64,000 bases of DNA from Accumulibacter sp. (lineage in GTDB: Bacteria; Pseudomonadota; Gammaproteobacteria; Burkholderiales; Rhodocyclaceae): the NCBI RefSeq assembly GCF_023806625.1, contig NZ_JAMTDX010000056.1:58501-122500 (forward strand). Direction: 5' to 3'. The notes under the pieces were generated by a model. It ran no database searches. It saw nothing but the letters and a program-made list of their open reading frames with translations, and was not told where the DNA came from. Below are positions 13,359 through 28,824 of the stretch, in pieces (the stretch's first letter is position 1; every line of letters starts with the position of its first letter). The position numbers were made by a program, and so were the translations under genes.

Positions 13359-13395
13359 CGGCTACTCCCCGGCGCGGCACGCGCCGCTCGACAGT

Positions 13396-13608: not shown

Positions 13609-13639
13609 CGGAATCTCCTGGATCAGTCGAATGGATGAG

Positions 13640-13814
13640 GGGGAGCGGCGCCATGCGCAAGTTCCCGCGTGCGCGTACGGCCTCGCTCGCCTCGCCTGCC
13701 GGCGGGCGGCGCGCCGACGCGCACGCGGCTCCCATCCCGCTCGCTGGCCCCACCCAACCGCACTCCAACCCACGCGCCGCTCTCCCCTGCCGGGGCGGAG
13801 CGGACGCGAATGCT
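13640..13814. repeat. 3' flank repeat, copy A
   Basis: About 170 bases downstream of variable protein 1 match 25640-25805, downstream of variable protein 3, with only scattered differences (for example the shared stretch around gcgcaagttcccgcgtgcgc). Both copies lead into a GC-rich hairpin and then a variable repeat. This shows that gene end and flank were duplicated or converted together. Confidence 0.85.
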
Positions 13815-13839
13815 CCCCTCTCCCCTTGCGGGAGAGGGG
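13815..13839. repeat. REP-like hairpin downstream of VR1
   Basis: cccctctccc (13815-13824) and gggagagggg (13830-13839) form a perfect 10-bp stem with a 5-base loop, GCAAG on the coding strand. It lies 41 bases beyond the 3' end of VR1. Similar hairpins stand at 20609, 24952, 25808 and 25845. Confidence 0.75.
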
Positions 13840-13867
13840 AAGGGGGAGAGGGGGCGGAAGGCAAGGG

Positions 13868-14653: not shown

Positions 14654-14670
14654 ATCGCCCTCCTCGCTCG

Positions 14671-15066
14671 TCAGAACCGCTCGCAGACCACCAGCTCGAT
14701 CTCGCCATTGTCGAGGACCCGCTCCTCCTCGATGATCAGCCCCTCCTGCAACACCTTGCGCTTCACCGCGAGGTGGGCGTAGGTCTGGTTGAGCTGCTGG
14801 GTGAAACTCTGCTCGCGGAGCGGCGTGTTGCCCTGCACGCCCCACCAGTCAGCGCAGACCGCGTAGCTCTCGTCGGCCTGGCGCTGGAAGCCGATGTCGT
14901 AGCGGCTGCCGGTGTCGACCACCACCTGGCCGTATTCGGTGTTGCCGGCGAAGCCACGAATCGGCACGCGCTCGCCGGACTGGAAGCGGTGATGCAACTG
15001 CCGCAGCGTGTCTTCGAGCAGCACGCGGTCGCGGATCACGGTCTGGACACGGGTGAAGTGCGACAT
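14671..15066 (-). CDS. DUF1257 (Ycf35-like) protein
   Basis: A 131-residue protein beginning MSHFTRVQTVIRDRVLLEDT, a start typical of DUF1257/Ycf35, with DIGFQRQADESYAVCADWWG in the middle and a C-terminus rich in Glu and Val. Ycf35 and Ycf46 are conserved in cyanobacteria and plastids with unknown function, and DUF1257, DUF2997 and Ycf46-like genes tend to occur together. Here it lies 70 bases after the kinase-AAA fusion and 18 bases before variable protein 1, so all are probably one transcript. GGGAGAACCAG upstream of ATG 15066 is a good ribosome site. Confidence 0.86.
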   Translation of the reverse strand: MSHFTRVQTVIRDRVLLEDTLRQLHHRFQSGERVPIRGFAGNTEYGQVVVDTGSRYDIGFQRQADESYAVCADWWGVQGNTPLREQSFTQQLNQTYAHLAVKRKVLQEGLIIEEERVLDNGEIELVVCERF

Positions 15067-15135
15067 GGTCTGGTTCTCCCTGGTTGTCGGTTGTTCGGCA
15101 TGGCATTCGGCAAGCGACTGCTCGCCTGCCGCATC

Positions 15136-17466
15136 CTATTCCGCCTGTGCCGCGCGCGCGTTGTCCCTCGCCCATTCGTTCAGATAGGCGATGTCGGCCT
15201 TGCGCGACTGCGACAAGGGCGGGCTCTCGCCGAGCGCGGCCTTCAGGTCGGCGTCGGTCAGCTCGCGGCAGTCTTCGGAAAAGGCGCGATAGAGGCCGGC
15301 GACGACCGCCGCCTCGATCTCGGCGCCGGAGTAACCGGCGCTCGCTCCTGCCAGCGCGGCGAGGTCGAAGCGCGCCGGGTCGCGGCCACGCTTCTTCAGG
15401 TGCAGGCCGAAGATGCCGGCGCGCTCGCGCTCGCCCGGCAGGCCGACGAAGAACACCTCGTCGAAGCGGCCCTTGCGCGTAAACTCGGGCGGCAGCCGCT
15501 GGATGTCGTTGGCCGTCGCGGTGACGAAGACCGGCGCCTGGCGGTCCTCGAGCCAGGTCAGGAAGGTGCCGAACAGCCGCCGTGCGACGCCACTGTCGCG
15601 CGCCTGGCCGAGACCGCCGAACGCCTTCTCGAGTTCGTCGATCCACAGCACGCAGGGGCTCACCGCCTCGGCGGTATGCAGCGCGCGGCGCAGCCGGCCT
15701 TCGGATTCGCCGACCAGCGAGCCATAGACCTTGCCCAGGTCGAGGCGCAGCAGCGGCACTTCCCAGTCGGCGGCGAGGGCCTTGGCGGACAGGCTCTTGC
15801 CGCAACCCGGCACGCCGACGAGGACGACACCGCGCGGCGGACGCAAGCCGAAGCGCCGGGCGCCCATTTCGAAGGCCTGACGGCGGCGGACGAACCAGCG
15901 CTTGAGGACCACGAGGCCGCCGACATCGGTCAGGCTCACGCCCGGGCGGCAGAATTCGAGCACCCCTTCCTTGCGCACCGTCTGCTCCTTCTCGGCGAGT
16001 ACGTCGCGCGCGCATTCGCCGTCGAAGACCCCGCGGCGCAACAGGCCGCGGCGCAGGACGCGTTCGGCCTCGCGCTCGCTCAGGCCGAGCAGCGAGCGCG
16101 CCAGCGTCTCCTTGAGCGGCGGGGCAGCCAGCGCCGCACCGGCCTCGAGCGCGACCTCGTCGACGATGCACTCCAGCTCCGCCGCTGCCGGCGGCGGGTA
16201 GAAGAGCATCGTCGTGTCGGCGATCAGCTCCTCGGGAACGCTCGCCGACGAGCCGACGAAGATCAGGCTCTTGCGCGAGCGCTTGACCGTCCACACCGCG
16301 TCGCGGATCAGGCGCACCGACACCGGCGTGAAGTGCCGGTGGATGTCGAGAAAGACGTAGATCGCCTCGGCCGGACCGCGGAAGACGTGCTCGAGCGCGA
16401 GCAGCGGGTCGCCGACCGTCTGCGTGGCGACGACGTGACCCTCGCGGTCGCGCAGCCCCTTCGTCGCGCTCCAGACGAAGAGGCCGATGTCCTTCTTCAC
16501 CGCCATCGCCTCGCGCACCCGCCGCAGCGAAGCGAGCACCCGATCCTCCTCGAAGGTCTGCAGCCAGATCAGCGGAAAATGCGCGCGCAGATGCACCTCG
16601 ATCAACCCCTCGACGTGATTCACCGTCGCTGCGTGGTGCTGCACGGCCTGCAGGTCGACGACGAATTCGGCGGCGCTCTGGTAGCGCTTGTCGGGGTCCT
16701 TCTCGAGCACTTTGGCCATCACCCGTGCCAGTCTTGGGTCGAAGGGCTCGGTGTCGAGTGGCGACAGGTCCGGCGGGTCGTAGAGGATCTGGCGCAGCAG
16801 GCTGCCCTCGTCGCGCGCCGGGAACGGCAGCGCGTTGGTCAGCAGCTGGTAGAGGGTGACGCCGAGACCCCAGAGGTCGGCGTTGAAGCCGGTCACCCCC
16901 TCGAACTGTTCGGGCGCCATGTAGGCCACCGAGCCGACGCGCGTCGCCGCCCGATACTGCGAATGCGCCATCAGCCGGGCGATGCCGAAGTCGAGGATCT
17001 TCACCGACCCGTCCGGCCGCCGGATCAGGTTCGCCGGCTTGATGTCGCGGTGGATCGCCAGCCCCTGATGCGCGTAGTCGAGCGCTTCGCCGACCTGGCG
17101 GACGATGTCCAGGGCCTCCTCCAGAGGCAGCGGCCCGCGCTCGGCGAGCAGGGCGTTGAGCGGCTGCCCGTCAACACGCTCGATGACCGCGAAGACCACC
17201 CCCTCGGCCTCGCCCAGACCGTATTCCTGGACGATCCCGGGGTGGCTGAGCGTGCGCACGACGCGCAGTTCGTTGGCCAGCAGCCCACGCGCCTCTTCGT
17301 CCTGCGCGTGCGGCACGCAGACGGCCACCGCTTCCGGCCAGCCGTTCGTCGCCGTGGCCAGATTGCGCGCCGCATAGACGGTCTTGAATCCGCCGCGGCC
17401 GAGCGCCCGCTCGATCAGGAAGTCGCCCAGCCGCTCGCCCGGGCGCAGGGTCCCGTCCGCTCTCAT
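15136..17466 (-). CDS. WNK-like Ser/Thr kinase fused to Ycf46-like AAA ATPase (copy 2)
   Basis: A 776-residue two-module protein. Residues 1 to about 275 are a Hanks-type kinase: glycine loop GRGGFKTVY (23-31), alpha-C Glu66, catalytic HRDIKPANL (Asp141), DFG (159-161) and APE-like MAPEQFEG. The beta-3 lysine is absent: VAVC puts Cys50 there, while Lys28 sits in the glycine loop. This is the WNK arrangement. Residues from about 300 on repeat the neighbouring ATPases: degenerate N-half (IWLQTFEEDRVLASLRR), Walker [13 protein letters not shown] (about 550), Walker [13 protein letters not shown], sensor TATANDIQRLPPEFTRKGR. ATG 17466 lies just before homology; an ATG at 17520 is possible. It probably links a signal to ATPase activity. 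Confidence 0.88.
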   Translation of the reverse strand: MRADGTLRPGERLGDFLIERALGRGGFKTVYAARNLATATNGWPEAVAVCVPHAQDEEARGLLANELRVVRTLSHPGIVQEYGLGEAEGVVFAVIERVDGQPLNALLAERGPLPLEEALDIVRQVGEALDYAHQGLAIHRDIKPANLIRRPDGSVKILDFGIARLMAHSQYRAATRVGSVAYMAPEQFEGVTGFNADLWGLGVTLYQLLTNALPFPARDEGSLLRQILYDPPDLSPLDTEPFDPRLARVMAKVLEKDPDKRYQSAAEFVVDLQAVQHHAATVNHVEGLIEVHLRAHFPLIWLQTFEEDRVLASLRRVREAMAVKKDIGLFVWSATKGLRDREGHVVATQTVGDPLLALEHVFRGPAEAIYVFLDIHRHFTPVSVRLIRDAVWTVKRSRKSLIFVGSSASVPEELIADTTMLFYPPPAAAELECIVDEVALEAGAALAAPPLKETLARSLLGLSEREAERVLRRGLLRRGVFDGECARDVLAEKEQTVRKEGVLEFCRPGVSLTDVGGLVVLKRWFVRRRQAFEMGARRFGLRPPRGVVLVGVPGCGKSLSAKALAADWEVPLLRLDLGKVYGSLVGESEGRLRRALHTAEAVSPCVLWIDELEKAFGGLGQARDSGVARRLFGTFLTWLEDRQAPVFVTATANDIQRLPPEFTRKGRFDEVFFVGLPGERERAGIFGLHLKKRGRDPARFDLAALAGASAGYSGAEIEAAVVAGLYRAFSEDCRELTDADLKAALGESPPLSQSRKADIAYLNEWARDNARAAQAE

Positions 17467-17578
17467 CGCCCGGCCACCGGCAGCGTGGCCGCAGTGCTGC
17501 GCGGCGCCAGGCCTGCCCATCGGCGCGGACGGCAGATCGCGCCTGCGCGGTCGCTGCTCCTCCGACTGCTGTCGCGCA

Positions 17579-17809
17579 TCACCGTACCTCCTGCAGCTTC
17601 TTGAGCTTGTCGCGGTCCCGCGAGGATTCGGTCAGCTTGCGCTGCTCATCGAGCCAGGCGTCGATGTCGACCCGGCGGAAGCGCCATGCCGAACCGATCT
17701 TGATCCCCGGAATGATCCCCTTCTGGGCGTAGCCGTAGAGCGTCCGCTCGCTGATCTTGAGCCAGGCGGACAGTTCCTGCAAGGTGAGAATGTCTTCTTC
17801 GCTGATCAT
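17579..17809 (-). CDS. Small helix-turn-helix (excisionase/MerR-type) DNA-binding protein
   Basis: A 76-residue protein with one winged HTH of the excisionase/AlpA type: EEDILTLQELSAWLKISERT, LYGYAQKGIIPG, then KIGSAWRFRRVDIDAWLDEQ, the usual recognition wing. Such proteins often act as regulators or recombination directionality factors. No integrase is seen nearby, so a regulator of the accessory operon is more likely; the palindrome at 28890-28903 is one possible target, but nothing links them directly. It lies between two AAA genes, 22 bases after the first. The start at 17809 is set by the family N-terminus. Confidence 0.85.
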   Translation of the reverse strand: MISEEDILTLQELSAWLKISERTLYGYAQKGIIPGIKIGSAWRFRRVDIDAWLDEQRKLTESSRDRDKLKKLQEVR

Positions 17810-17831
17810 CGTTTGACTTGCCCGGGGCGAT

Positions 17832-19406
17832 CTACGCGAGGTCGAGGAGGCGCTCGCCACGCACCTGGTCGACCCGCACCTCATCCGCCGCGGTGCGCTT
17901 CGAGGCGTTGCGCGCCTCGCCATTGACCACCAGCTGGCGCAGCTTCTCGATCCGCTCGCGGTGCGATCGGGCCAGCGGGACCATCGCGCCGGCGGCGCCG
18001 ACCAGATCGTCGGTCTCTATTTCGCGCCGACCGTCCATGAAGGCGGGAAACATCGCGTCGTTCACCACCGCCTCCAGTTCGGCGCCGACGAAGCCCTCCG
18101 TCGCCCGCGCCACTTCCGACAGGACGAAGCGGTGACGGATCATCGTCAGGCCCTTGCGGCCAAGATGCACCTCGAGAATCTGCTCGCGCTCGCTGGCCGT
18201 CGGCAGGTCGAGGAAGAACACTTCGTCGAAGCGGCCCTTGCGCAGGAACTCCGGCGGCAGATGCTCGGTGTTGTTGGCGGTGGCGAAGACGAACACCGGC
18301 GCGCGCTTCTCCTGCATCCAGGTGAGGAAGGTGCCGAGGACGCGGCTCGAAGTCCCCGAGTCCCCCGCCGATCCGGCGAAGGCCTTCTCGATCTCGTCGA
18401 CCCAGAGCACACAGGGAGCGATCACCTCGGCGATCTGCATCGCCTCGCGGATGTTCCTTTCCGACGCGCCGAGGAGGCCACCGAAGACGGCGCCCATGTC
18501 CAGCCGCAGCAGCGGCAGCTTCCACATGCCGGCGGCGACCTTGGCGCAGAGACTCTTGCCGGTTCCTGGTATGCCGATCAGCGCGACGCCGCGCGGCGCC
18601 TGCAGCCCGTAGTCGCGTGCCGCCTCGGAAAACGCCAGCTGGCGCTGCCCCAGCCACCCCTTCAGCACTTCCAGCCCGCCGACACGGTCGGCGCTCTCGA
18701 CCAGCGGATGGAATTCGAGGGCTCCGCTCTCGCGGATGATCGCGCGCTTCTCGGCGCTCACCAGGTCGATCGCCCCGACGTCGATCTGGCCGCCGCGGCT
18801 GGTCACCACTGCTTTCTGGAAGGCGCGGCGCGCCTGGATGCTGGTCAGCCCGAGCGCCGCCTCGACGAGCTTGGCGCGCAGCTCGGGTTTCACCAGCCGC
18901 AGCGCGCCCGTACTGCCGACGCAGCGCTCGAGCAACGCGTCGATCTCGCGCGCGTCGGGCTTGGCCAGTTCGAGCACCGGCACGTCGTGCTTCAGCTCCA
19001 CCGGCAGGCAGTGTTCCGGCGTGGTGATCACGATATTCTTGCGCGGGCTGGCTTCCGGCAGCCGCGCCACCAGATTGCGCAGACCGCGCAGCGCCCCGCG
19101 CTTGGCCTCCCAGACCTGGTGAAAGTCCTTGAGGACAAAGGTTGCGCTGCCGGGATAGTCGCGGATCATGCGCAGGATGGTATCGGGTGTCGCCTCGCGC
19201 TTGTCGTCGAAATTCACCCGCGCCGGTTTCAGACAGGTGAACTGGTCGGCGATATCCCAGGCATACAGCCCTTCGTCGGCCGGCCAGCCAGGCCCGCGCG
19301 CCAGTTCGCTCAATTCCTGCAGCACCCGCGCCTCCTCGCTGCTGACCACGTTGACCACCGCGATGCGGGCGTCGAAATGCAGCTTCAGTTCCTGTTGCAG
19401 CGACAT
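17832..19406 (-). CDS. Ycf46-like AAA ATPase, copy 3
   Basis: A 524-residue paralogue of the ATPases at 11766 and 15136. The N-half shows [20 protein letters not shown] and [19 protein letters not shown], corresponding to the degenerate half in the others. The AAA module has Walker [13 protein letters not shown] (about residue 278), Walker [13 protein letters not shown], sensor [18 protein letters not shown] and the lid [21 protein letters not shown]-terminal helix ([13 protein letters not shown]) resembles the end of copy 1. AGGAGAAGAGC precedes ATG 19406. It is followed at 22 bases by the HTH gene. The three copies have diverged well beyond recent duplication. Confidence 0.88.
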
Positions 19407-19459
19407 GCTCTTCTCCTGAAAATCACGCTACCCACCTCCAGCCTTCCCCCGTTCCTGAG

Positions 19460-20077
19460 TCACCCCCCATCCCGTCGTTCCCCGACAAGTGGGGAAGGGG
19501 CAGTCTGTCCTGCGCCAATCTCCCGGCCCGCCGGAAACCCGGTCACCGCCACCACACCGTCGCTGCCGACGCGGAACTCCACGCGGCGCACCCCCGGATC
19601 CACACCGCGATAGCGCTCACTCAGGAACACCAGTTCCTGGTTGCTGCTCGCCAGCAGTGCATGGCTCTGCGCACGCTCGCGCTGGTACGGGCCGGCGACC
19701 AGCAGGTCGCTGGCGGCGAGCAGCCGCCGGACGCCGCGATCGCGGCGGCGGCGCAGCATTGCGGCCGCGAAACCGGTGAAGACCAGCACGCCCTTGCCCG
19801 CAGCCCGAACGGCTTCCGCCACCTCGGCCAGCGCCTCCGCCTGCGCGAAAGGCTCGCCGCCCGAGAAACTGACGCCTTCTGTTTGCGGCTCCGCGAGCAT
19901 CCAGCCGGCGATCGCCGAAGGCGCTGCCTCGCGTCCGCCGACAAAGGGCACGAAATCGGGATTGAAACAGCCGGCGCAACGCAGTGGGCAACCCTGCACC
20001 CAGAGCACCGAGCGCAGCCCGGGCCCGTTGGCGCGCGAGCGCGGCAGGAAGGCAGCGATGCAAAGCGAGCGCTTCAT
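19460..20077 (-). CDS. Small radical-SAM protein (activase-like, CX3CX2C)
   Basis: A 205-residue single-domain radical-SAM protein. Cys30, Cys34 and Cys37 in VQGCPLRCAGCFNPDF form the cluster motif and VSFSGGEPFAQ the SAM-binding GGE motif. The short length and N-terminus (LPRSRANGPGLRSVLWVQGC) resemble NrdG-type glycyl-radical activases, but no ribonucleotide reductase or other glycyl-radical enzyme is nearby. The last 20 residues (GAGQTAPSPLVGERRDGG region) are encoded by a hairpin-containing repeat (19478-19496) and are probably not part of the ancestral protein. It belongs to the minus-strand run, 53 bases before AAA copy 3. Substrate unknown; modification of a neighbouring protein is conceivable. 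Confidence 0.85.
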   Translation of the reverse strand: MKRSLCIAAFLPRSRANGPGLRSVLWVQGCPLRCAGCFNPDFVPFVGGREAAPSAIAGWMLAEPQTEGVSFSGGEPFAQAEALAEVAEAVRAAGKGVLVFTGFAAAMLRRRRDRGVRRLLAASDLLVAGPYQRERAQSHALLASSNQELVFLSERYRGVDPGVRRVEFRVGSDGVVAVTGFPAGREIGAGQTAPSPLVGERRDGG

Positions 20078-20136
20078 GACCCGTTCGGCGAATCGCCGAA
20101 GTTGACGCGCCGGCCGGCAGGTTCCAAGATCACTGC

Positions 20137-20382
20137 ATGCCCACCGTTGTCGACGACCTGCGCGGATATCGCCTGTTCTTCTTCAGCATCGATCGCGGCG
20201 AACCGATGCACATTCACGTTGCGAAGGGGCGCGGCTACGCCAAGTATTGGCTGCAACCGTTGACGCTGGCGCGTTCGCGCAACTTCCGTGGTCATGAACT
20301 CAACGAGATCGCCAGGCTCGTTGAAACGCAGCGCGATCAGATCGAGAGGAAATGGCATGAACACTTTGGCCGCGATGATTGA
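20137..20382 (+). CDS. DUF4160 family protein
   Basis: An 81-residue protein: MPTVVDDLRGYRLFFFSIDR, then GEPMHIHVAKGRGYAKYWL and ELNEIARLVETQRDQIERKW. The HIHV core and C-terminal helix are those of DUF4160. DUF4160 genes are commonly followed by DUF2442, as here with overlapping frames, a layout that recalls toxin-antitoxin pairs, although I know of no proven activity. It is one of only two genes on the plus strand inside the 17-kb minus-strand locus, so the pair looks like a separate insertion. Confidence 0.85.
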   Translation: MPTVVDDLRGYRLFFFSIDRGEPMHIHVAKGRGYAKYWLQPLTLARSRNFRGHELNEIARLVETQRDQIERKWHEHFGRDD

Positions 20383-20596
20383 ACCGCTGGCGGTAGATGT
20401 GACTTTCACCGCAGCCGGCCTGCATGTCGTTCTGGCCGACGGCCGCGAGGTTTCCGCTCCGCTGCAGTGGTTTCCGCGGCTGCTGCAGGCGACTGCCGAG
20501 CAACGGGCGCACTGGGAACTGATCGGTGATGGCATCGGCATCCATTGGCCGGAGCTTGACGAAGACATCGAGGTGGAGAGTTTGCTGGGCACGTGA
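20357..20596 (+). CDS. DUF2442 family protein
   Basis: A 79-residue protein with the DUF2442 pattern: a first strand pair LAVDVTFTAAGLHVVLADGR, then EVSAPLQWFPRLLQAT and a C-terminal GIGIHWPELDEDIEVESLL. The ATG at 20357 lies inside the end of DUF4160 (26-base overlap), so translation is coupled; a second ATG at 20384 would lie just past the DUF4160 stop. GAGAGGAAATGGC upstream serves as ribosome site. The C-terminal Trp-Pro-Glu-Leu-Asp-Glu-Asp-Ile is the best-conserved piece of the family. Function unknown; possibly the antitoxin-like partner of DUF4160. Confidence 0.86.
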   Translation: MNTLAAMIEPLAVDVTFTAAGLHVVLADGREVSAPLQWFPRLLQATAEQRAHWELIGDGIGIHWPELDEDIEVESLLGT

Positions 20597-20608
20597 CTGG
20601 CGGCCGCC

Positions 20609-20632
20609 CCCTCCCCCCTCCGTGGGGGAGGG
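20609..20632. repeat. REP-like hairpin beside the variable-protein relic
   Basis: ccctccccc and gggggaggg form a 9-bp stem with a 6-base loop. It lies 31 bases past the residual variable-repeat end at 20664, mirroring the hairpins downstream of VR1 and VR3. Confidence 0.7.
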
Positions 20633-20650
20633 TTGGGGTGGGGGCAAGGT

Positions 20651-20808
20651 TCACGAAGCCATCCTCATGAGATGAAAACCCTGGGCGTCGAGGCGGCTCT
20701 CCAGGACCGAGCCGTCCCGAACATTCACCACCAGCGGCGACGGGCAGCCTGCATCGAGCCCCGCCTGCGTCCCGTACACGACCTTGCCTGCAGCGTCCCC
20801 GGCCATCT
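20651..20808 (-). pseudogene. Relic of a fourth DGR variable protein
   Basis: The minus strand reads PSPLVVNVRDGSVL, matching the N-terminal HPLVVNARDGSVL of the three variable proteins, and five residues later AQGFHLMRMAS then stop, matching their C-terminal NQGLRLVRMAS. The central 200 residues are gone. The only upstream ATG (20808) is out of frame by a two-base change in a G run (20759-20764), so the reading is broken twice. The last 33 bases (20664-20696) still resemble the variable-repeat end, with changes at template adenines plus others, consistent with decay after deletion. A homopolymer sequencing error could account for the frameshift but not for the deletion. Confidence 0.82.
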
Positions 20809-20830
20809 CACATTCCCTCCCCTTGCTCGC

Positions 20831-22456
20831 TCACAGCTTGACGAACGGCAGATCGCGCACCGGCAGATCGAGCCGCTCGCCGTTGCCCAGTTGCACGAAA
20901 GAGCGGTTGCCGGCGTGCAGGTCCTTCAGCGACAGCGTCAGCCGCTTGTTGGCGTCGACCCCGAAGCCGGCGACGAAACGCCTCTCGCCGATGGTGCATG
21001 CCGGCTCGGCGTGGATGAACTCGGTGTCGCCAGGGTTGAGTTCGCGCAGCGAGGTGTCCTCGCGCCGCTGCACGTTCACCGCCTTGAGGCTGCCGCCTTC
21101 CATCACGTAGATCGTCTCCGGCCGCAGCATCGCCGAGCGTTCGACGACCACCAGGCCGAGGCGGGTGGCGCCTTCGCAGGCGGCATTGACGTACTTCACC
21201 GAGACCGGTTTTTCGGTCGGGTAGCGGGTGCCCCTGGGCACCACCGGCACCAGCACGTAATCCTTGCTGTCGCGATCCCAGGCGCGCAGGCAGTAGTCGT
21301 GCACCAGCGCCAGGTTGATGTCTTCGCCGGCGTAGCGGCAGGCGCCGCGGGCGATCGCCTCGAAGGGATCTTCGCAATGCACCGGGCAATTGGGAAAGAT
21401 GTCGCCGACGCGCGCCGCGACGCCGAGCAGCAGGCTCGAACCGCCGGCCATGAACACCGCGCGGACCTCCGACTTGCGCGTGCCGTACCGGCCCTGCGCC
21501 TGTTCGAGCGCGCGCTCGACGGTGCTCGCCACCAGCCGGTAGAGACTCAGGCCGCCGAACTCGGGCCGGGCGGCCTCGAGCGTGCGGCGCAGCCCTCCGG
21601 CAGTGTAGCTGTGGCTGATCAGGCGCCCGCTCAGGTCGTTGAACTGCTCGACCTCGCAGCGCTCGCTGCCGCCCGACAGATCCACCTTGGCGTCTTCGAC
21701 GGCGCGCAGCAACGCCGTGCCGACGTCGGCGACGTCCTGGTCGGAGAGCTGCTGCGCCTGCTGCAGCTCGCGCAGCAGCCACTGGTCGACCAGCGAGCCG
21801 CCGATCTCCTCGCCGGCACGGCCGAGCACGTCGCAGGGACGAGTGTCGCCGGCGGAGAGATCGCGCGTCCTGACTACCGAGACGTCGAGCGTGCCGCCGC
21901 CGAAGTCGAAGACGACATAGACCTGCCCCTCGCGCACGTGCGTGTCGTAGCCGAGGATGCACGCGGTGGCCTCGTCGAGCATCCGCAGCGTGCCGCGGAA
22001 GCTCTGCAGCACGGCGCCCTGCAGCCAGTCGGTATATTTGTCGAAGGACTCGACCGGCAGCGTCACCACCAGATCCTCGCCGGCCTGCGCGCCGGCCGCG
22101 AGCAGCACCTCGCCGATCAGATCCTCGGCCGCCTGGCGCGGGGTGATCAGGTCGCCGTTGATCCGCCGCGCGCGGTTGTTGTCGCGCAGCAGGTCGAGCT
22201 TGACCCAGCGGAAAGTGCCGCGGTGGCTGGCCAGCCCGGCGTTCTCGACCTGCGCGCCGGTACGCAGCGTGTTGCCTTCGCCGTAATGGACCAGCGAGGG
22301 GATGACCGCCGATTCGCGCTCGCTCGCCGCCCCCGGCAGACGATAGCGATAAATCCTGCTCATTCCCTGCGGGCGCAGCGTCTCGACGCTCCGGGTGGCG
22401 GAGTTCCAGCGCGCGAGCACGGTGTTGCAGGTGCCGAAGTCGATGGCCAGCGTCAT
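20831..22456 (-). CDS. Hsp70-family (DnaK-like) protein
   Basis: A 541-residue actin-fold ATPase. Phosphate loop 1 is LAIDFGTCNTVLARW at the N-terminus, phosphate loop 2 is YVVFDFGGGTLDVSVV, and the adenosine motif is VFMAGGSSLLLGV. EVEQFNDL and the catalytic-core order follow DnaK, but the substrate-binding part (from about residue 400) is short, the helical lid appears missing, and there is no EEVD-like tail. No DnaJ gene is adjacent. Its start overlaps the end of the GrpE-like gene (ATGA), so the two are translated together. This looks like a dedicated chaperone/ATPase pair for the DGR locus rather than housekeeping DnaK. Confidence 0.88.
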   Translation of the reverse strand: MTLAIDFGTCNTVLARWNSATRSVETLRPQGMSRIYRYRLPGAASERESAVIPSLVHYGEGNTLRTGAQVENAGLASHRGTFRWVKLDLLRDNNRARRINGDLITPRQAAEDLIGEVLLAAGAQAGEDLVVTLPVESFDKYTDWLQGAVLQSFRGTLRMLDEATACILGYDTHVREGQVYVVFDFGGGTLDVSVVRTRDLSAGDTRPCDVLGRAGEEIGGSLVDQWLLRELQQAQQLSDQDVADVGTALLRAVEDAKVDLSGGSERCEVEQFNDLSGRLISHSYTAGGLRRTLEAARPEFGGLSLYRLVASTVERALEQAQGRYGTRKSEVRAVFMAGGSSLLLGVAARVGDIFPNCPVHCEDPFEAIARGACRYAGEDINLALVHDYCLRAWDRDSKDYVLVPVVPRGTRYPTEKPVSVKYVNAACEGATRLGLVVVERSAMLRPETIYVMEGGSLKAVNVQRREDTSLRELNPGDTEFIHAEPACTIGERRFVAGFGVDANKRLTLSLKDLHAGNRSFVQLGNGERLDLPVRDLPFVKL

Positions 22457-23064
22457 CAGCTTTCCCTTCCTGCCTGTTCGTCGAGACTGCTTTCGGATGC
22501 GGCGCCGGCGCGGCTGACCATCGCCTTGAGGAGGATCCTCTCGCCGAGGCGGTAGCCGACGAAGCGCACGCTGACCGGGTCGCCGTCATCGACGTCGGCA
22601 CCGCTCATCCGCTGGTGGACGCGGGTGTCGAATCGCGTCTGCTCGCCGACTGCGCCGATCCGCGTCAGGCCCGCCTCGCCGAGCACGCGCTCGACCTTGG
22701 CGAAGAGTTTCAGCACGTCGTCGATGCGCAGCGCGCGTCCCCCTTCGGCGAGCGCCTGCATCGTGGCCAGTTGCGAAAGGAGCGGGGCAAGCCGTCGCGC
22801 CAGCGCGTCCAGACCGGCGCCCGCGGCGGCAGCGCGATCCGTCTCGGCCTGCGTGCGCAGGCGCTCGTACTCACCGCGCACGCGCGCGAGTTCGGCGTCG
22901 CGCTCGCGCAGATCCAGTTCGAGACCGGCGGCGCGGTTGCGCGGGTCCGCAGCGGGCCCGGCGGGCAAGGGAGCAGGCGGTGCCGTCCGCCCGCCGTCGC
23001 TTCCCACCAGTACGCGCCACGCCGCACCAACCCGCGACGAGAGGTCGTTGTATTGTGAGGTCAT
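22456..23064 (-). CDS. GrpE-like nucleotide exchange factor
   Basis: A 202-residue protein. Residues 45-75 form a coiled coil (LELDLRERDAELARVRGEYE), residues 80-130 a helical part, and the C-terminal domain is GrpE-like: FDTRVHQRMSG corresponds to FDPxxHxA, and SVRFVGYRLGERILLKAMV to the GYxxxxRVLRPAxV end. GrpE releases ADP from DnaK. Its ATGA overlap with the following Hsp70-like gene supports a cognate pair. GGAGG lies ten bases before ATG 23064. The first 40 residues are Pro/Ala-rich and unlike housekeeping GrpE. Confidence 0.8.
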   Translation of the reverse strand: MTSQYNDLSSRVGAAWRVLVGSDGGRTAPPAPLPAGPAADPRNRAAGLELDLRERDAELARVRGEYERLRTQAETDRAAAAGAGLDALARRLAPLLSQLATMQALAEGGRALRIDDVLKLFAKVERVLGEAGLTRIGAVGEQTRFDTRVHQRMSGADVDDGDPVSVRFVGYRLGERILLKAMVSRAGAASESSLDEQAGRES

Positions 23065-23118
23065 TGCCTAGTCCTCCGTTTCAGGCTGTTGGTTGTAGCG
23101 GGGTTGGGGGGAGGTGGC

Positions 23119-23153
23119 GGAGCGGCTTCAAGGCAAGGGGCATGAAGCGCTCC
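23119..23153. repeat. Imperfect inverted repeat at the end of VR2
   Basis: ggagcggcttca (23119-23130) and tgaagcgctcc (23143-23153) pair over 11 bp with one bulged base and a 12-base loop. It begins directly at the 3' end of VR2, where the other targets have the GC-rich hairpin 40 bases away. Confidence 0.5.
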
Positions 23154-23898
23154 TCACGAGACGCAAACCCAGGAAGCCGTAGCGGACGCCGGGGACGTTC
23201 CAGTAGCGGCGCGCCGCCCGGAAGAAGCCCGGGTCGTCGAGCCCCCAGCCGCCGCCGCGGCCCACCCGGTTCGAGCCTCCCGCCGGCCCACCCGGGTCCT
23301 TCCGCGGCGACTCGCCGTAGTACTTCGCGTCGTACCAGTCCGCACACCATTCCCACACGTTCCCGGTCTGGTTGTACGTCCCGTAGCCCGACACCCCTCG
23401 CGGGTAACCCTGCACCGCACTCGTCGTCTCGTTGCGTCTGTTCCTGTCGTGCCGGCATCGGCTCGAGTCCCACTCGTTCCCCCACGGATACGCCAGGCCC
23501 AGCGGGCCCCGGCACGCCTTCTCCCATTGCGCCTCGCTCGCCAGACCACACCCCGCCCAATTCGCGTAGGCGACCGAGTCGTCCCAGTTGACATCCGTCA
23601 CCGGATGCTCGGCCAGACCGCTCTCGCGGTGGCGCGTGTTGTCCGGCGCCCGATGCCCCGTCGCCTGCACGAACTTCAGATACTGCGCGTTCGTCACCGC
23701 ATACACCCCGATCCAGTACCCCGACAGCTCGACTCGGTGCTTCGGGCAGTAGTTCTCCTGCCCATCGCCCATCTCGAATTCCCCCGCCGGAACGTAAACC
23801 AGCACACTGCCGTCCCGCGCGTTTACCACCAGCGGGTGTTCGACCCGGAAACGGCCGCGCTCGAACTCGCGCCAGAACTTCACCGCAGTCTCAGACAT
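23128..23898 (-). CDS. DGR variable protein 2, FGE-sulfatase/C-type-lectin fold
   Basis: A 256-residue paralogue of the other two targets. The N-terminal segment RFRVEHPLVVNARDGSVLVY matches variable protein 3; residues 45-75 are shorter (GDGQENYCPKHRVELSGYW). The core has NWDDSVAYANWAGCGLASEA and YPRGVSGYGTYNQTGNVWEW. The variable repeat near the end contains RVGRGGGWGLDDPGFFRAA and RRYWNVPGVRYGFLGLRLV, followed by six extra residues (SASCPLP end) not found in the others. Its ATG overlaps the last codons of the reverse transcriptase by eight bases, so target and polymerase are translationally coupled. Probably a receptor-like binding protein; no signal peptide is visible, so it is likely cytoplasmic. 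Confidence 0.92.
   Translation of the reverse strand: MSETAVKFWREFERGRFRVEHPLVVNARDGSVLVYVPAGEFEMGDGQENYCPKHRVELSGYWIGVYAVTNAQYLKFVQATGHRAPDNTRHRESGLAEHPVTDVNWDDSVAYANWAGCGLASEAQWEKACRGPLGLAYPWGNEWDSSRCRHDRNRRNETTSAVQGYPRGVSGYGTYNQTGNVWEWCADWYDAKYYGESPRKDPGGPAGGSNRVGRGGGWGLDDPGFFRAARRYWNVPGVRYGFLGLRLVRSASCPLP
23153..23279 (-). repeat. Variable repeat VR2 (DGR)
   Basis: This 127-base segment has the same length as TR and differs at 20 positions, all template adenines. Both ends are sharply bounded: the 18 bases ctcacgagacgcaaaccc and the 8 bases ending at 23279 are identical to TR, and similarity stops beyond. Confidence 0.95.
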
Positions 23899-24889
23899 CG
23901 ATCACGCTCCTGATCGCTGCGCCATACCCCAGGAAGCGTCTGGGTCCGCTGATTGCCCGCACGCAATCCTGCAACTGCCGGGCGCCGAGTTCACCGCGCA
24001 GGTAGGCGGCTTCGCGCCGGGCCAGCAGGCGGCGCTGCCGGCGCAGGCGCTGGCCCTGCTGGCGCAGCACGCCAGGATGGACGCGCCAGCCGAGGAAGGG
24101 CATGCCTTCGCTCACCGGCGCCACCTGCGTGCGTTCTTCCTTCAGTTGCAGGCCGAGCCGCTCGGCGAGAAAGACGCGCAGGTCGGCGGCGAGCGCAAAG
24201 AGTTGATCCTTGTCGTCCGCCCAGCAGGCGATGTCGTCCATGTAGCGCAGGTAACCGGGGATGCGCCGGGCTTCCTTCAGCCAGTGGTCCATTTCGTCGA
24301 GATAGAAGTTGGCGAACCACTGGCTGGTGAGGTTGCCGATCGGCAGACCCTTGCCGGCCGCCTGGCCGGGAATCGGATGCTCGATCAGCGTTGCCAGCAG
24401 CGACTGCAAGGCCGGCTCCCGGCACAGGCGCCCGAGCTTGCCGAGCAGGATGGCGTGATCGACCGAGTCGTAGTAGCGGCGAATGTCGGTCTTCAGGAAC
24501 CAGCCGTGACGGCGCGCCAGCAGTTGCGCACGGAGCAGCGCGCGGTGGCTGCCCTTGCCGATCCGGCAGGCGTAGTTGTCGTCGATCAGCCGCCGGTCGA
24601 TCAGCGGCGCCAGCACCGCGCAGACCGCATGGTGCACGACCCGGTCGCGGAAATCGGCGCAGCTGATCAGCCGCGGCTTCGGGTCGAGAACGCCGAACTG
24701 CGTGTAGGGCCGCGGCCGGTACTCGCCGCAGCGAATCTCGTTCGACAGTCGCTCGACGTTGGCCGCGCGATCGGCGAGGAAGCGCTGCACCCGGAGGCGC
24801 TCATGCTTACCGCGCGCCGCACGATCCACCGCCGCATCCAGCGTCCCGGGGGCGGCGATGCGCCCGAAGAGTCCCGAGTACGATTTCAT
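23891..24889 (-). CDS. DGR reverse transcriptase
   Basis: A 332-residue retroelement polymerase. The catalytic motif is YMDD (residues 216-219) in GYLRYMDDIACWADDK. Upstream are FLKTDIRRYYDSVDH (first catalytic Asp) and GLPIGNLTSQWFANFYLDEM. The IGxxxSQ sequence replaces the QGxxxSP of group II introns and is characteristic of DGR and related enzymes. No maturase or endonuclease domain follows. It copies the TR RNA with errors at adenines and, with its accessory protein, transfers cDNA to the variable repeats. It overlaps the HRDC gene upstream (ATGA) and variable protein 2 downstream, so three DGR genes are coupled. Confidence is very high because TR and VRs are visible. Confidence 0.97.
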   Translation of the reverse strand: MKSYSGLFGRIAAPGTLDAAVDRAARGKHERLRVQRFLADRAANVERLSNEIRCGEYRPRPYTQFGVLDPKPRLISCADFRDRVVHHAVCAVLAPLIDRRLIDDNYACRIGKGSHRALLRAQLLARRHGWFLKTDIRRYYDSVDHAILLGKLGRLCREPALQSLLATLIEHPIPGQAAGKGLPIGNLTSQWFANFYLDEMDHWLKEARRIPGYLRYMDDIACWADDKDQLFALAADLRVFLAERLGLQLKEERTQVAPVSEGMPFLGWRVHPGVLRQQGQRLRRQRRLLARREAAYLRGELGARQLQDCVRAISGPRRFLGYGAAIRSVIDV

Positions 24890-25455
24890 GAACTCCTCTC
24901 TTCACCAGCAACTCCTGCCCCCTCGTTGAGGGCAGAGCGGGCGCCAACACTCCCTCCCCCGAACGTGGGGGAGGGCTGGGGTGGGGGGGTGGGAGGAGCC
25001 TCCGGCGCCTCAGTGGGCAGCAGCGCCAGGATCGCCGCGCCGTACCGGGTGCAGGTGGCTTCGCCGACGCCTTCGATCTCGCGCAGCGCTGCCAGCGAGC
25101 GCGGCAGGCGCCGGCAGATCTCGGCGAGTTGGACGTTGCGCAGAATGCTGTAGGAGGGGATGCCGACCTTCTTGGCCTCCTCGTTGCGCCACTCGCGCAG
25201 GCTGCGGTAGAGCGGGCGCAGCGCTTCGGCGAGTTGCAGTTCGGGGTTCTCCTCGGAGCGGTTCTGGCTGGCACGTGGCGCGCCGGCGCCGTTGCCGAGC
25301 AGCAGCACCAGCGCCAGGTGCGGTACGGCGCCATGGACGAAGAAGTGCTCGCGCACCTCCAGCACTTCGTGCCCGGCGATCGCCGCGCGCAGTGCCTCCT
25401 CGGGGAACCCCTGCAGGCCGTCGCTGTAGCGCAGGGTCAGGACGCGGACCTGCAT
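24886..25455 (-). CDS. DGR accessory protein with HRDC domain
   Basis: A 189-residue protein. The N-terminus MQVRVLTLRYSDGLQGFPEE to about residue 60 (EVREHFFVHGAVPHLALVL) is the pattern of DGR-associated HRDC proteins, and residues 70-145 are an HRDC domain (LYRSLREWRNEEAKKVGIPS, ILRNVQLAEICRRLP, IEGVGEATCTRYG). HRDC domains bind nucleic acid; in DGRs they replace the Avd accessory subunit beside the reverse transcriptase. The last 40 residues, Pro- and Gly-rich (PPPQPSPTFGGGS), come from a repeat hairpin at 24952-24975 and are probably an acquired tail. The stop overlaps the RT start (ATGA). Confidence 0.9.
   Translation of the reverse strand: MQVRVLTLRYSDGLQGFPEEALRAAIAGHEVLEVREHFFVHGAVPHLALVLLLGNGAGAPRASQNRSEENPELQLAEALRPLYRSLREWRNEEAKKVGIPSYSILRNVQLAEICRRLPRSLAALREIEGVGEATCTRYGAAILALLPTEAPEAPPTPPPQPSPTFGGGSVGARSALNEGAGVAGEERSS
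24952..24975. repeat. REP-like hairpin inside the 3' end of the HRDC gene
   Basis: ccctccccc and gggggaggg, 9-bp stem, 6-base loop. It is translated as part of the C-terminal tail of the HRDC protein, so the repeat has invaded the coding end. Confidence 0.7.
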
Positions 25456-25639
25456 GGCTCATTCCTCAGCAGGGGAGGGAAAACGACGCGGCGGGTCTCG
25501 CTGCGCTCGACCCGGCCCCCACACCCCAGCCCGTCCCGTGCCGGCGCTGCAGCGCGGGCCCGCTGGGGCGGCGCGGAGCAGTGCTCCGCGAAACCCCGCC
25601 TTCGTCCCCCACGTTGGGGGAGGGAGTGGACGGTAGGCA

Positions 25640-25805
25640 GCGCCGCGCGCAAGTTCCCGCGTGCGCGTGCGGCGCCGCTCGCCTCGCCTGCCGGCGGGCG
25701 GCGCGCCGACGCGCACGCGGCTCCGATCCCGCCAACGTGCCGTACCCAACCGCACTCCAACCCACGCGCCGCTCTCCCCTGCCGGGGCGGAGCGGGCGCG
25801 AATAC
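25640..25805. repeat. 3' flank repeat, copy B
   Basis: This is the counterpart of 13640-13814, downstream of variable protein 3. The order repeat, hairpin, variable-repeat end is the same in both places, so the duplication included the whole 3' part of the target gene. Confidence 0.85.
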
Positions 25806-25807
25806 TC

Positions 25808-25867
25808 CCTCCCCCCTGGCGGGGGAGGCTGGGACGGGAAAACTCCCTCCCCCCTTGTGGGGGAGGG
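25808..25867. repeat. Two tandem REP-like hairpins downstream of VR3
   Basis: The first hairpin (25808-25828) has an 8-bp stem cctccccc/gggggagg; the second (25845-25867) has a 9-bp stem ccctccccc/gggggaggg with loop ACAAG on the coding strand. The second lies 40 bases past the end of VR3, the same distance as at VR1. Confidence 0.75.
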
Positions 25868-25894
25868 TCGGGGTGGGGGGGCGGAAGGCAAGGG

Positions 25895-26692
25895 TCACGA
25901 AGCCATCCTCACGAGACGCAAACCCTGGAAGACGACGCGGCGGCCGGGGCCGCCCCAGTAGCGGTACGCCGCCCGGAAGCCGCCCGGGCCGCCGCCCCCC
26001 CAGCCGCCGCCGCGGAACACCCGGCCCGAGCCTCCCGCCGGCCCACCCGGGTCCTTCCGCGGCGACTCGCCGTAGTACTTCGCGTCGTACCAGTCCGCAC
26101 ACCATTCCCACACGTTCCCGGTCTGGTTGTACGTCCCGTAGCCCGACACCCCTCGCGGGTAACCCTGCACCGCACTCGTCGTCTCGTTGCGTCTGTTCCT
26201 GTCGTGCCGGCATCGGCTCGAGTCCCACTCGTTCCCCCACGGATACGCCAGGCCCAGCGGGCCCCGGCACGCCTTCTCCCATTGCGCCTCGCTCGCCAGA
26301 CCACACCCCGCCCAATTCGCGTAGGCGACCGCGTCGTCCCAACTGACGCAGACCACCGGGTGATCCGCCCTCTCCGCCGGGAAACGCCCGGCTTTCCACT
26401 CCGGTTCTCCGTAGTCAGCGTGCTCCGGCGCCCGGTGCCCCGTCGCCTGCACGAACTTCAGATACTGCGCATTCGTCACCGCATACACCCCGATCCAGTA
26501 CCCCGACAGCTCGACTCGGTGCCGCGGACGTTCGTCATCGCTCCCCTCGCCCGCCGCCGACCCCATCTCGAATTCGCCGCCCGGGACATACACCAGCACA
26601 CTGCCGTCCTTGGCATTCACCACCAGCGGGTGCTCGACCCGGAAACGGCCGGGGGAGAGTTGCCGCAGCATTCCGCCTCTGCTCTGTGACAT
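25895..26692 (-). CDS. DGR variable protein 3, FGE-sulfatase/C-type-lectin fold
   Basis: A 265-residue DGR target, nearly identical to variable protein 1 through the central region (HADYGEPEWKAGRFPAERAD) and to variable protein 2 in NRRNETTSAVQGYPRG. The N-terminus is MSQSRGGMLRQLSPGRFRVE; AGGAAGAG upstream of ATG 26692 fixes the start, while the open frame running up to 27037 crosses the template repeat and is not coding. The variable end contains RVFRGGGWGGGGPGGFRAAY and RYWGGPGRRVVFQGLRLVRM. No Cys pair of true FGEs and no signal peptide. It is the target closest to TR and the first target of the run. Confidence 0.92.
   Translation of the reverse strand: MSQSRGGMLRQLSPGRFRVEHPLVVNAKDGSVLVYVPGGEFEMGSAAGEGSDDERPRHRVELSGYWIGVYAVTNAQYLKFVQATGHRAPEHADYGEPEWKAGRFPAERADHPVVCVSWDDAVAYANWAGCGLASEAQWEKACRGPLGLAYPWGNEWDSSRCRHDRNRRNETTSAVQGYPRGVSGYGTYNQTGNVWEWCADWYDAKYYGESPRKDPGGPAGGSGRVFRGGGWGGGGPGGFRAAYRYWGGPGRRVVFQGLRLVRMAS
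25908..26034 (-). repeat. Variable repeat VR3 (DGR)
   Basis: A 127-base segment without indels against TR. It has 25 substitutions, all at template adenines, the highest number of the three targets. The 18-base end next to the stop codon is identical to TR. Confidence 0.95.
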
Positions 26693-26890
26693 GGCCTGCT
26701 CTTCCTTTCTGCCGCGAGGGCCTTGCGGCCCCCGATTGACTCGATGCGCCGGGATCGGGCGCGGCGGCGACGGCGGGCCCGCGTCAAACGGGCTTACTGG
26801 CCGCAACCGGCCCTCCGGTTTCGTTCCCGCACATGCGGGACACGGGGTACGACGGCTGGGACAGCTTCGTGCCCTTGCCTTGAACCTGTG

Positions 26891-27017
26891 CTCACGAGAC
26901 GCAAACCCTGGTTGTCGTTGCGGTTGCCGGGGTCGTTCCTGTTGCGGTTCGCCGCCCGGAAGTTGCCCGGGTCGTCGTTCCTCCAGCTGCCGCCGCGGTT
27001 CACCCGGTTCGAGCCTC
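26891..27017 (-). repeat. DGR template repeat (TR)
   Basis: A non-coding 127-base copy of the variable end. Read on the minus strand it would give NRGGSWRNDDPGNFRAANRN followed by RNDPGNRNDNQGLRLV: nearly every variable position is an adenine-rich codon (AAC, GAC, AGG). It lies between the helical-repeat gene and variable protein 3, on the same strand as the run, so the operon transcript can provide the template RNA. About 200 bases separate it from the downstream target start (26692) and contain no gene. Confidence 0.96.
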
Positions 27018-27066
27018 ATCGCCGTCGCCCCGGACACTGCCTATTGCTCAGGCGGCAAAATCGCCG

Positions 27067-28824
27067 CTAGAAATCCCCTTCCGGTGCGTCTTCGATCTCG
27101 ACTGCGCGCCGGTCGGTGGCTTCGCCGCTCTTCTCGACCGTGATGCCGCTGCTGACGAAGACGCCCTGCAAGGCGCAGAGGATTTCGAGCAGCGCCTGGC
27201 TGCGGACGGCGGCCGCGCCGCGCGCCTTGCCCAGGCGCTCGGTGTTCCTCGCGTAGTCTTCGGGAGTGCCCCCGATCGGCTCGTTGAGCAGCGTGCCATC
27301 GCCGGCACAGGCCGCAACCCAGAGTACGTGATCCTCCGCTTTCTCTGCGTACAGCGCGGTGTCGGCGAGACGGGCGATCAGCCGCTCGGGCCAGTGCTCG
27401 CTGCGCGCCGCGGCGCCGAGACGGGTGGCGTCGACGAGCCCGCGCTCGTGGCCGAGATAGAGTCCGCGCGCCCTGCGGAAGGGATCGGCGGCGTCGAGGT
27501 CGGCACGCAGTTCGGCATCGCCCGGTTTCTCCCGGCGCCACCAGTCGAAGATGTCGACCAGACCCTCGGGCAATTCCGGACCGGCTTCGACCTTGAAATC
27601 GCCAAGCCGGCGATACGCCGTCAGCGCACGCTCGACAGCAGCCCGCTGGCGCGGAGCGCTGGGTCGCGCGTTGCTGGCCGCCCAGCGCTCACAGAGGTCG
27701 AGTGCCTCGGCCAGGCGCAGCGACCGGGCGAGTTCGAAAAGGCCGTCTTCGTCGCCGACGCGCTTGAGGTTGTCGAGGCTGCTCGCGGCGTCGACGCCGC
27801 TGCCGCCGGTCAGGGCGCGGCGGTAGGCTTCCTTGAGGCGTCGATCGGGACTCGCCGCGACCGCTCGCGCCAGGCGCTCGCGGAAGGGTTCTGGCGCCAT
27901 CGCGAACGCCTGGACGACGAGCATGCCGTCTTCGTCGTCGAGCGCGGCGTAGCGCTCGAGCCGGCCGGTGACCAGCGCATGCAGCGCTTCCAGCGCCGGG
28001 CTGCCCGGCTGTCGCCCCTGCTCGGCGATCAGCTTTTCGAGATCGGCAGACTGGGAGCGGACCCAGGCACCGTAGATCGCGTCGTTGGTCGCTTCGTCGG
28101 CAACGGGCAGAGCACGCGCCAGGGCAGCGACTGCCGCTCGCACTTGCGGCGCCGCGTCCACCGTGGCGAAGCCCAGAACGTCTCGCGCGAATCTGCCATC
28201 GACCGCGTGCGACGGCGGCCAGCCCAGTCGGCCGAGCACCGCGGCGACCGGCGCCGTCGGCGAACGGGCCCAGGCGTCCCACAGCGCCCGCACCTTCTCC
28301 GCGTCGCGCTCCGCCGACAGCTGCAGCAACGCCTCCGAGAGATCCCTGGCGTTCGGATGGCCCTTCCCGAGAAACTCGGCAAGCACCAACGCGCCTTCGG
28401 TGTCGGGTGCGATGACCAGCGCCTTGAGCATCGGGGTGAAGCCGCTCACCGCCTGAAGGATTTCCGCTGGGGAGTCGGCGCGGGCGACAGCCAGTACCGC
28501 ACGCGCTGCGCTGGCATCGACCGCGTGCGACGGCGGCCAGCCCAGTCGGCCGAGCACCGCGGCGACCGGCGCCGTCGGCGAACGGGCCCAGGCGTCCCAC
28601 AGCGCCCGCACCTTGTCCGCGTCGCGCTCCGCCGAGAGCTGCAGCAACGCATGGGCAATGTGGTTCTGGTTCGGATGTCCGCCCTTGCCGAGTGCTTCGG
28701 CCAGCGCGACGGCGCCGGCCGGATCAGTCGATCCGGCAAGTTCCCTGAGCGCCGCACGGCGACGGAAGGTGCCGATCAGGAATGTCGTATCGTAAAGCCG
28801 GGCCTTCGCTTCGCTGAGGTTCAC
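27067..28824 (-). CDS. Uncharacterised alpha-helical (HEAT-like) repeat protein, first gene of the DGR run
   Basis: A 585-residue protein that I cannot assign to a named family. It is helical, rich in Ala, Leu, Arg and Glu, without signal peptide or membrane segment. Two tandem units of 106 residues share the core RALWDAWARSPTAPVAAVLG followed by RLGWPPSHAVD, suggesting HEAT/TPR-like solenoid units; weaker repeats follow (RLKEAYRRALTGG). The GTG at 28824 with GGGGGAG seven bases upstream is preferred: an ATG at 28884 would overlap the promoter -35 box. As promoter-proximal gene of the locus it may be a scaffold or sensor. The C-terminal 100 residues (EDHVLWVAACAGDGTLLN) are more conserved-looking. 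Confidence 0.7.
   Translation of the reverse strand: MNLSEAKARLYDTTFLIGTFRRRAALRELAGSTDPAGAVALAEALGKGGHPNQNHIAHALLQLSAERDADKVRALWDAWARSPTAPVAAVLGRLGWPPSHAVDASAARAVLAVARADSPAEILQAVSGFTPMLKALVIAPDTEGALVLAEFLGKGHPNARDLSEALLQLSAERDAEKVRALWDAWARSPTAPVAAVLGRLGWPPSHAVDGRFARDVLGFATVDAAPQVRAAVAALARALPVADEATNDAIYGAWVRSQSADLEKLIAEQGRQPGSPALEALHALVTGRLERYAALDDEDGMLVVQAFAMAPEPFRERLARAVAASPDRRLKEAYRRALTGGSGVDAASSLDNLKRVGDEDGLFELARSLRLAEALDLCERWAASNARPSAPRQRAAVERALTAYRRLGDFKVEAGPELPEGLVDIFDWWRREKPGDAELRADLDAADPFRRARGLYLGHERGLVDATRLGAAARSEHWPERLIARLADTALYAEKAEDHVLWVAACAGDGTLLNEPIGGTPEDYARNTERLGKARGAAAVRSQALLEILCALQGVFVSSGITVEKSGEATDRRAVEIEDAPEGDF
28197..28332. repeat. In-frame internal repeat, copy A (pairs with 28515-28650)
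   Basis: 136 bases match 28515-28650 with two differences; the offset of 318 bases is 106 codons. Sequence on either side is related but far more diverged, which points to local gene conversion or strong constraint within the repeat protein. Confidence 0.9.
28515..28650. repeat. In-frame internal repeat, copy B (pairs with 28197-28332)
   Basis: Second copy of the 136-base unit core inside the helical-repeat gene, N-terminal in the protein. Confidence 0.9.

Follow-up and report, generated by a model that had tools for sequence, protein, structure and literature searches.

The window analysed here is the whole 64,000-nucleotide (nt) stretch of an Accumulibacter sp. genome (contig NZ_JAMTDX010000056.1 of assembly GCF_023806625.1), and positions given without another label refer to it. 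Within a cluster of chaperone and ATPase genes it carries a reverse transcriptase (RT) gene, an HRDC-domain gene, one template repeat (TR) and three variable repeats (VRs), each VR lying at the 3' end of a gene for an FGE/C-type-lectin protein. We are highly confident that this locus is a cellular diversity-generating retroelement (DGR) in which a single template serves three target genes. Its features, with protein lengths in amino acids (aa), are the following.

26891-27016, minus strand: TR, 126 nt (127 with one extra common base), 30 adenines
13881-14003, minus strand: VR1, 3' end of target 1; 16 substitutions at A, 3-nt in-frame deletion
23153-23278, minus strand: VR2, 3' end of target 2; 20 substitutions at A
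25908-26033, minus strand: VR3, 3' end of target 3; 25 substitutions at A
13868-14653, minus strand: target 1, FGE-sulfatase/C-type lectin protein, 261 aa (PF03781, E 1e-55), between the DUF1257 and DUF2997 genes
23128-23898, minus strand: target 2, FGE/C-lectin protein, 256 aa (PF03781, E 1e-51), 8-nt overlap with the RT gene
25895-26692, minus strand: target 3, FGE/C-lectin protein, 265 aa
23891-24889, minus strand: DGR reverse transcriptase, 332 aa (PF00078; motifs LPIGNLTSQ and YMDD; solved relative 8ub7; tree)
24886-25455, minus strand: HRDC-domain accessory protein, 189 aa (PF00570, E 3e-19), 4-nt overlap with the RT gene

Repeats and substitution spectrum

In program alignments TR differs from VR1, VR2 and VR3 by 16, 20 and 25 substitutions, and all 61 fall at a template adenine; the counts that the original prediction had made by eye are thus exact. 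Adenine occupies 30 of the 126 TR positions, giving P = (30/126)^61, about 1e-38, and 28 of these 30 adenines have been replaced in one VR or more. When both strands of the window were scanned with the 127-nt TR and no gaps were allowed, exactly two segments besides TR itself came up, 23153-23279 (20 substitutions) and 25908-26034 (25), which are VR2 and VR3 with their 127th, shared base and contain no mismatch at a non-A position. VR1 was picked up by BLASTN with a gap (13881-14002, refined to 13881-14003). It is one codon short of TR through an in-frame loss of CAA, AAC or ACA, three placements being tied, and its 16 substitutions, all at template A, are counted at the best gap placement. 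The statement that no other base differs therefore stands for substitutions, the deletion in VR1 having gone unmentioned. Similarly, the interval 23153-27017 first assigned to the element does contain TR, VR2, VR3 and the RT and HRDC genes, while VR1 lies outside it, 9888 nt from the RT gene.

As a control, pairwise comparison of the three target genes upstream of the VRs gave 59, 78 and 94 differing sites; no A takes part in 28, 49 and 58 of them, respectively. Because the flanking sites are unbiased in this way and 61 of 61 VR substitutions are at A, we reject ordinary divergence as the origin of the VR differences. The replacement base is most often G (33/61). The reading frame of TR limits the consequences of such changes: the 28 adenines inside its 41 whole codons are every one at codon position 1 or 2, no TR codon can be turned into a stop codon by adenine change, and the 18 variable codons allow about 2e16 possible proteins per target.

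Reverse transcriptase, HRDC gene and target proteins

The RT and HRDC genes are present as originally claimed. The best solved relative of the RT is a 328-aa chain, 8ub7 (E 4e-49), labelled only "Reverse transcriptase", which we take to be the RT of the BPP-1 DGR; the next solved chains are group II-type and other RTs, at E 1e-17 or weaker. BPP-1 Brt and the window RT are 37% identical. In our tree, 29 rows including both of these RTs are split from five group II-like rows at 100/100 (L123, L101, L104 and L038 were included; L063, identical to L051, and L064, with an odd motif and a long branch, were excluded). The window RT belongs to neither of the two large RT clades of its genus. It pairs, at a support of 90/87 that is not strong, with the RT of plasmid pPAES01, its own branch being long. 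An HRDC protein is a DGR accessory in Treponema denticola according to the excerpts available of PMC4891356. Taken together, the locus shows adenine-only TR/VR differences, an RT of the DGR clade with the SQ motif, an HRDC accessory gene, and VRs at the 3' ends of three intact C-lectin-type open reading frames (ORFs).

The targets are stand-alone FGE/C-lectin proteins with intact ORFs, targets 1 and 2 being 81-85% identical to target 3 at the protein level. They lack the two C-terminal active-site cysteines of catalytic FGE, both of which lie in the aligned segment of the bacterial FGE chains 6muj and 2q17: targets 1 and 3 have no cysteine beyond residues 195 and 198, and target 2 has only residue 253, past the VR. 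Since they combine an FGE-type C-lectin fold—modelled for target 3 only, a weak first model (pLDDT 64.6) having been superseded—with the absence of the catalytic cysteines, the targets are best read, from sequence and model, as binding proteins. In all, 53 FGE stretches were found, three of them the window targets, and 42 of the other 50 entered alignment A2.

The chaperone cluster, its relatives and known systems

Along the minus strand, gene X is followed after 50 nt by TR, after a further 198 nt by target 3, and after 439 nt by the HRDC gene, RT and target 2. Then come, 63 nt on, GrpE and Hsp70 (1-nt overlap), the remnant of a fourth target, a radical SAM gene, an AAA+ gene, a helix-turn-helix (HTH) gene, a kinase-AAA+ gene, DUF1257, target 1, DUF2997 and a last AAA+ gene. 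The only plus-strand genes in the cluster are a DUF4160/DUF2442 pair (20137-20596), between the remnant and the radical SAM gene.

27067-28824, minus strand: gene X, 585 aa from an assumed GTG start, upstream of TR; no Pfam family reaches its cut-off
22456-23064, minus strand: GrpE-like protein (PF01025)
20831-22456, minus strand: divergent Hsp70, 541 aa (PF00012)
20651-20806, minus strand: fourth-target remnant, 51 codons, an FGE start joined to an FGE end with the middle lost; no Pfam match of its own
19460-20077, minus strand: radical SAM/4Fe-4S protein (PF13353), NrdG-like but under the NrdG cut-off
17832-19406, minus strand: AAA+ ATPase, 524 aa (PF00004)
17579-17923, minus strand: HTH_17 protein (PF12728), start uncertain
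15136-17520, minus strand: Ser/Thr protein kinase fused to an AAA+ ATPase, 794 aa (PF00069, PF00004)
14671-15066, minus strand: DUF1257 protein (PF06868)
13396-13611, minus strand: DUF2997 protein (PF11211)
11766-13358, minus strand: AAA+ ATPase, 530 aa (PF00004)

The AAA+ proteins of the cluster are Cdc48/FtsH-like. PADLOC gave only generic matches, to RT, kinase and AAA+ domains, which we do not take as evidence of defence. Gene X has an internal repeat of 168 nt (28165-28332 and 28483-28650, 92% alike).

Close orthologues of the Hsp70 are rare: they occur in 3 of 369 class-sampled genomes at a cut-off of E 1e-40 and in 2 of 398 phylum-sampled genomes at a cut-off of E 1e-60, the genome of the window counted in both, and the best match among 27 genus mates (E 2.7e-14) is at the level of ordinary Hsp70. 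FGE genes stand beside genes of the Hsp70/GrpE/DUF1257/DUF2997 set in four genomes from three families and in three positions, with HRDC and RT genes nearby or not. In G259, from another family, X (7164-8630), FGE (8751-9551) and GrpE (9582-10127) are consecutive, X being 59% identical to window gene X over 442 residues. No HRDC or RT match was found on this 19-kb stretch. A second contig of G259 carries Hsp70, radical SAM, AAA+, DUF1257 and DUF2997, the Hsp70 and radical SAM ORFs being only 15 nt apart where the window has the DUF4160/DUF2442 pair between them. RTs match in two places of this genome with equal score, and the one in the tree (L104) is group II-like and has no SQ motif. G143 has the order DUF1257-FGE-DUF2997, with Hsp70 on a separate contig; its DGR-type RT (L101, SQ motif, long branch) is elsewhere, in a neighbourhood without a BLASTN match to the operon FGE, for which no TR partner was found among the loci compared. 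A search for TR-like DNA, run without a positive control in these two genomes, found none in G143 or G259. Because G143 has a DGR-type RT elsewhere, we take only G259 as a DGR-free case, and its arrangement may reflect either gain of the DGR in the lineage of the window or its loss in G259. Finally, G529 (74% complete) has FGE, HRDC, GrpE, Hsp70 and FGE on a contig of 5886 nt with no RT match, and a DGR-type RT with HRDC on another contig. Its second FGE gene, cut by the contig end, follows Hsp70, the position of the remnant in the window. In the same genome an FGE gene of L122 is present as a tandem copy (1-981 and 1129-2109, 1128 nt apart, 100% alike where compared), near a contig end, and may be an assembly artefact; by eye, the gene is more GC-rich at its 3' end than in its body.

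Comparison with known systems places the element more precisely. The BPP-1 DGR (Mtd/Avd/Brt) has one phage tail target, whereas the window has three cellular ones; its TR lies between bbp7 and the RT gene, whereas that of the window lies beyond target 3, as seen from the RT gene; and it has Bbp7, presumably identical with Avd, where the window has HRDC. In Prosthecochloris aestuarii plasmid pPAES01 (NC_011061.1), HRDC and RT lie between two FGE genes, and the plasmid's RT, the nearest in the tree, and HRDC protein are 47-52% and 42% identical to those of the window. However, pPAES01 is a conjugative plasmid with no chaperone gene among 12 listed features, its order is FGE-HRDC-avd-RT-FGE, and, unlike the window, it has avd and a TR-like repeat directly after the RT gene. 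Given this layout, the window DGR looks like a rearranged relative without a recognisable avd.

The excerpts available of PMC3521204 and PMC10907252 report multi-VR FGE DGRs, duplicated targets and genomes with several DGRs, and name Accumulibacter among the hosts. These elements resemble the one in the window in having several paralogous targets per TR, although no Hsp70/GrpE/AAA+ cluster is described in those excerpts as the host of the targets. The DGR itself, then, belongs to a known type, multi-target FGE DGRs being already in print. The T. denticola DGR (TvpA, remote targets) has mostly lipoprotein targets in a spirochaete, in contrast to the short proteins in a chaperone cluster seen here. 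FGS/FGE domains beside NTPase chaperones and DGRs are also on record (partial texts of PMC7159879 and PMC8195603). A parallel is provided by the MoxR-vWA ternary conflict systems, where DGR-diversified FGS/FGE genes likewise neighbour NTPase chaperone genes. In the portion available of PMC7159879, FGS is mostly fused to vWA and accompanied by MoxR and VMAP, as opposed to stand-alone FGE with Hsp70/GrpE and AAA+ chaperones in the window, and Hsp70-GrpE occurs with GTPase systems instead. No vWA or MoxR family scored over cut-off among the scanned cluster proteins (11766-28824); outside the cluster, a ClpB has a bpMoxR score of 26.8, just under the cut-off of 27. We found no description of a DGR in an Hsp70/GrpE/DUF1257 cluster in the open-licence PMC text that could be searched.

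History of the repeats and alternative explanations

By homology to BPP-1, the TR RNA would be copied by the RT with the help of the HRDC protein, its adenines being misread, and the mutated complementary DNA (cDNA) would replace the VR at the 3' end of each FGE/C-type-lectin gene. VR1 may preserve a trace of this process. With a split chosen post hoc, 13/13 adenines are changed in its 5' half and 3/14 in its 3' half (Fisher 3e-5), whereas the halves are even in VR2 (8/13 and 12/16) and VR3 (12/13 and 13/16). In BPP-1, short homology is enough for joining of the cDNA 5' end, and such joining has been observed at cryptic sites within a truncated VR (excerpts of PMC3240598). By analogy, a fresh, little-mutated cDNA joined in the middle of VR1 would leave a new 3' part and an old 5' part, the half-mutated picture to be expected from mid-VR joining, which would make VR1 a natural case for locating where the cDNA 5' end joins. 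A second trace is that target 3 outside the VR is a mosaic. Its 5' part is closer to target 1 (405/446) than to target 2 (347/425), and yet in the 195 columns before the VR it is identical to target 2 (195/195) and differs from target 1 (177/195); the maximum chi-square value for this pattern was reached in 0 of 10000 permutations.

To our knowledge, cellular DGR targets mostly lack a known partner, and at this locus candidates for that role are explicit, which makes it well suited to asking what FGE-type DGR targets bind and which proteins they act with. Judging from gene content, the targets might act as the variable recognition subunits of the surrounding Hsp70-GrpE/AAA+/kinase module, with defence against invaders as one possible role, although this is a weaker proposition than the DGR itself. 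The wider possibility is a previously undescribed machine for variable recognition. In it, a DGR would have taken over a divergent Hsp70-GrpE/AAA+/kinase-AAA+ module that in other genomes, such as G259, works with FGE-type lectins but no DGR, and a single template would go on rewriting three interchangeable recognition proteins of the chaperone, partly through mid-VR joining and recombination between targets. We regard it as doubtful, but if it were true, the DGR would tune a chaperone-based recognition system.

Several observations weigh against these interpretations and qualify the word "complete" in the original prediction, which otherwise identified the hallmarks of a DGR correctly. Avd is needed by the BPP-1 DGR, and tblastn of two Avd proteins against the 64-kb window revealed no convincing homologue, although a divergent Avd could escape such a search. 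BPP-1 Avd gave nothing at E 1, and the single match of pPAES01 Avd (E 0.004) was rejected for being weak and antisense to Hsp70. Stems are present downstream of each VR in single-strand folds, but their distances vary and they resemble C/G-rich palindromes elsewhere between genes, so that an initiation of mutagenic homing (IMH) site or cruciform is putative. Since VR1 retains 11 of its 14 3' adenines and a 3-nt deletion, homing of target 1 may be rare or poor. Lastly, the chaperone link consists solely in gene neighbourhood, in four genomes, with the module split over contigs in G259 and G143. As to the palindromes themselves, two places in the window (25847-25867 and 20608-20632) fit the strict C-rich/G-rich pattern, and similar ones were seen by eye near 24950-25000 and 25600-25870.

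How far do other explanations account for the same data? That these are simply paralogous FGE genes diverged by ordinary mutation and selection, with TR an extra truncated copy, has practically no chance of being right. The 81-85% identity of targets 1 and 2 to target 3 would suit it, and FGE C termini rich in asparagine also occur where no TR is known, the G143 gene being an example by eye, so that the adenine richness may in part be ancestral; the substitution spectrum already refutes it, however, the control sites outside the VRs show no such bias, and a DGR-type RT is adjacent. Better placed, though still unlikely, is a once-active DGR that has fallen silent, with RT, HRDC and targets persisting but homing stopped and the VRs now fixed alleles. 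A full new round of homing would erase the deletion that VR1 keeps, and the missing Avd, the decay of the fourth target and the DUF4160/DUF2442 pair settled beside its remnant all fit that account. Nevertheless, long silence would be expected to bring non-A changes, of which there are none among 61 substitutions over three VRs whose flanks differ freely, and intact ORFs remain for the RT, the HRDC protein and all three targets.

Gene conversion between targets concerns a different question, because it is compatible with a DGR and would add recombination as a second source of diversity. We see even chances that it, rather than independent homing, produced the likenesses between VRs and between targets. 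The change in target 3 from resembling target 1 to complete identity with target 2 before the VR argues for it, as does the agreement in base between VR1 and VR3 at 10 of the 15 sites where both have changed, including eight successive A-to-G changes (positions 28-53). Yet these eight were noticed after the fact and G replaces A more often than the other bases do, so that chance or selection for glycine could explain the VR part, and gene conversion cannot replace the DGR because all VR states are A-derived. We keep to a DGR with one template and three targets, with or without exchange between the targets.

Other DGR-related loci in the genome and genus

A locus on another contig of the same genome, L036 (G000:C62:101000-115721), was considered as a source of further targets of the window TR and rejected, as it has a TR of its own and forms a second DGR.

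L036, 6182-6652: HRDC gene
L036, 6664-7686: RT gene
L036, 7720-7851: TR
L036, 5787-5918 and 8839-8970: VRs

Over a 132-nt stretch these VRs show 21 and 26 differences from their own TR, 17 and 20 of them at TR A, the remaining 4 and 6 being confined to the ends of the stretch (positions 1-4 and 122-128). The element has two FGE targets, one within an ORF of up to 976 aa, and its RT (L065), unlike that of the window, belongs to a genus-wide clade. Elsewhere in the genome, at about 6690-6830 of L037 (G000:C9:15710-15802), there is a fragment of an FGE C terminus, rich in asparagine, with a reading frame that does not continue into its own end; it may be an orphan TR or a decayed target. In three other genomes of the genus (L118, L119 and L120), FGE genes lie near DGR RTs or TR-like DNA and are fused to long N-terminal parts, by eye WD40-like or ATPase/leucine-rich-repeat (LRR)-like, unlike the short targets of the window.

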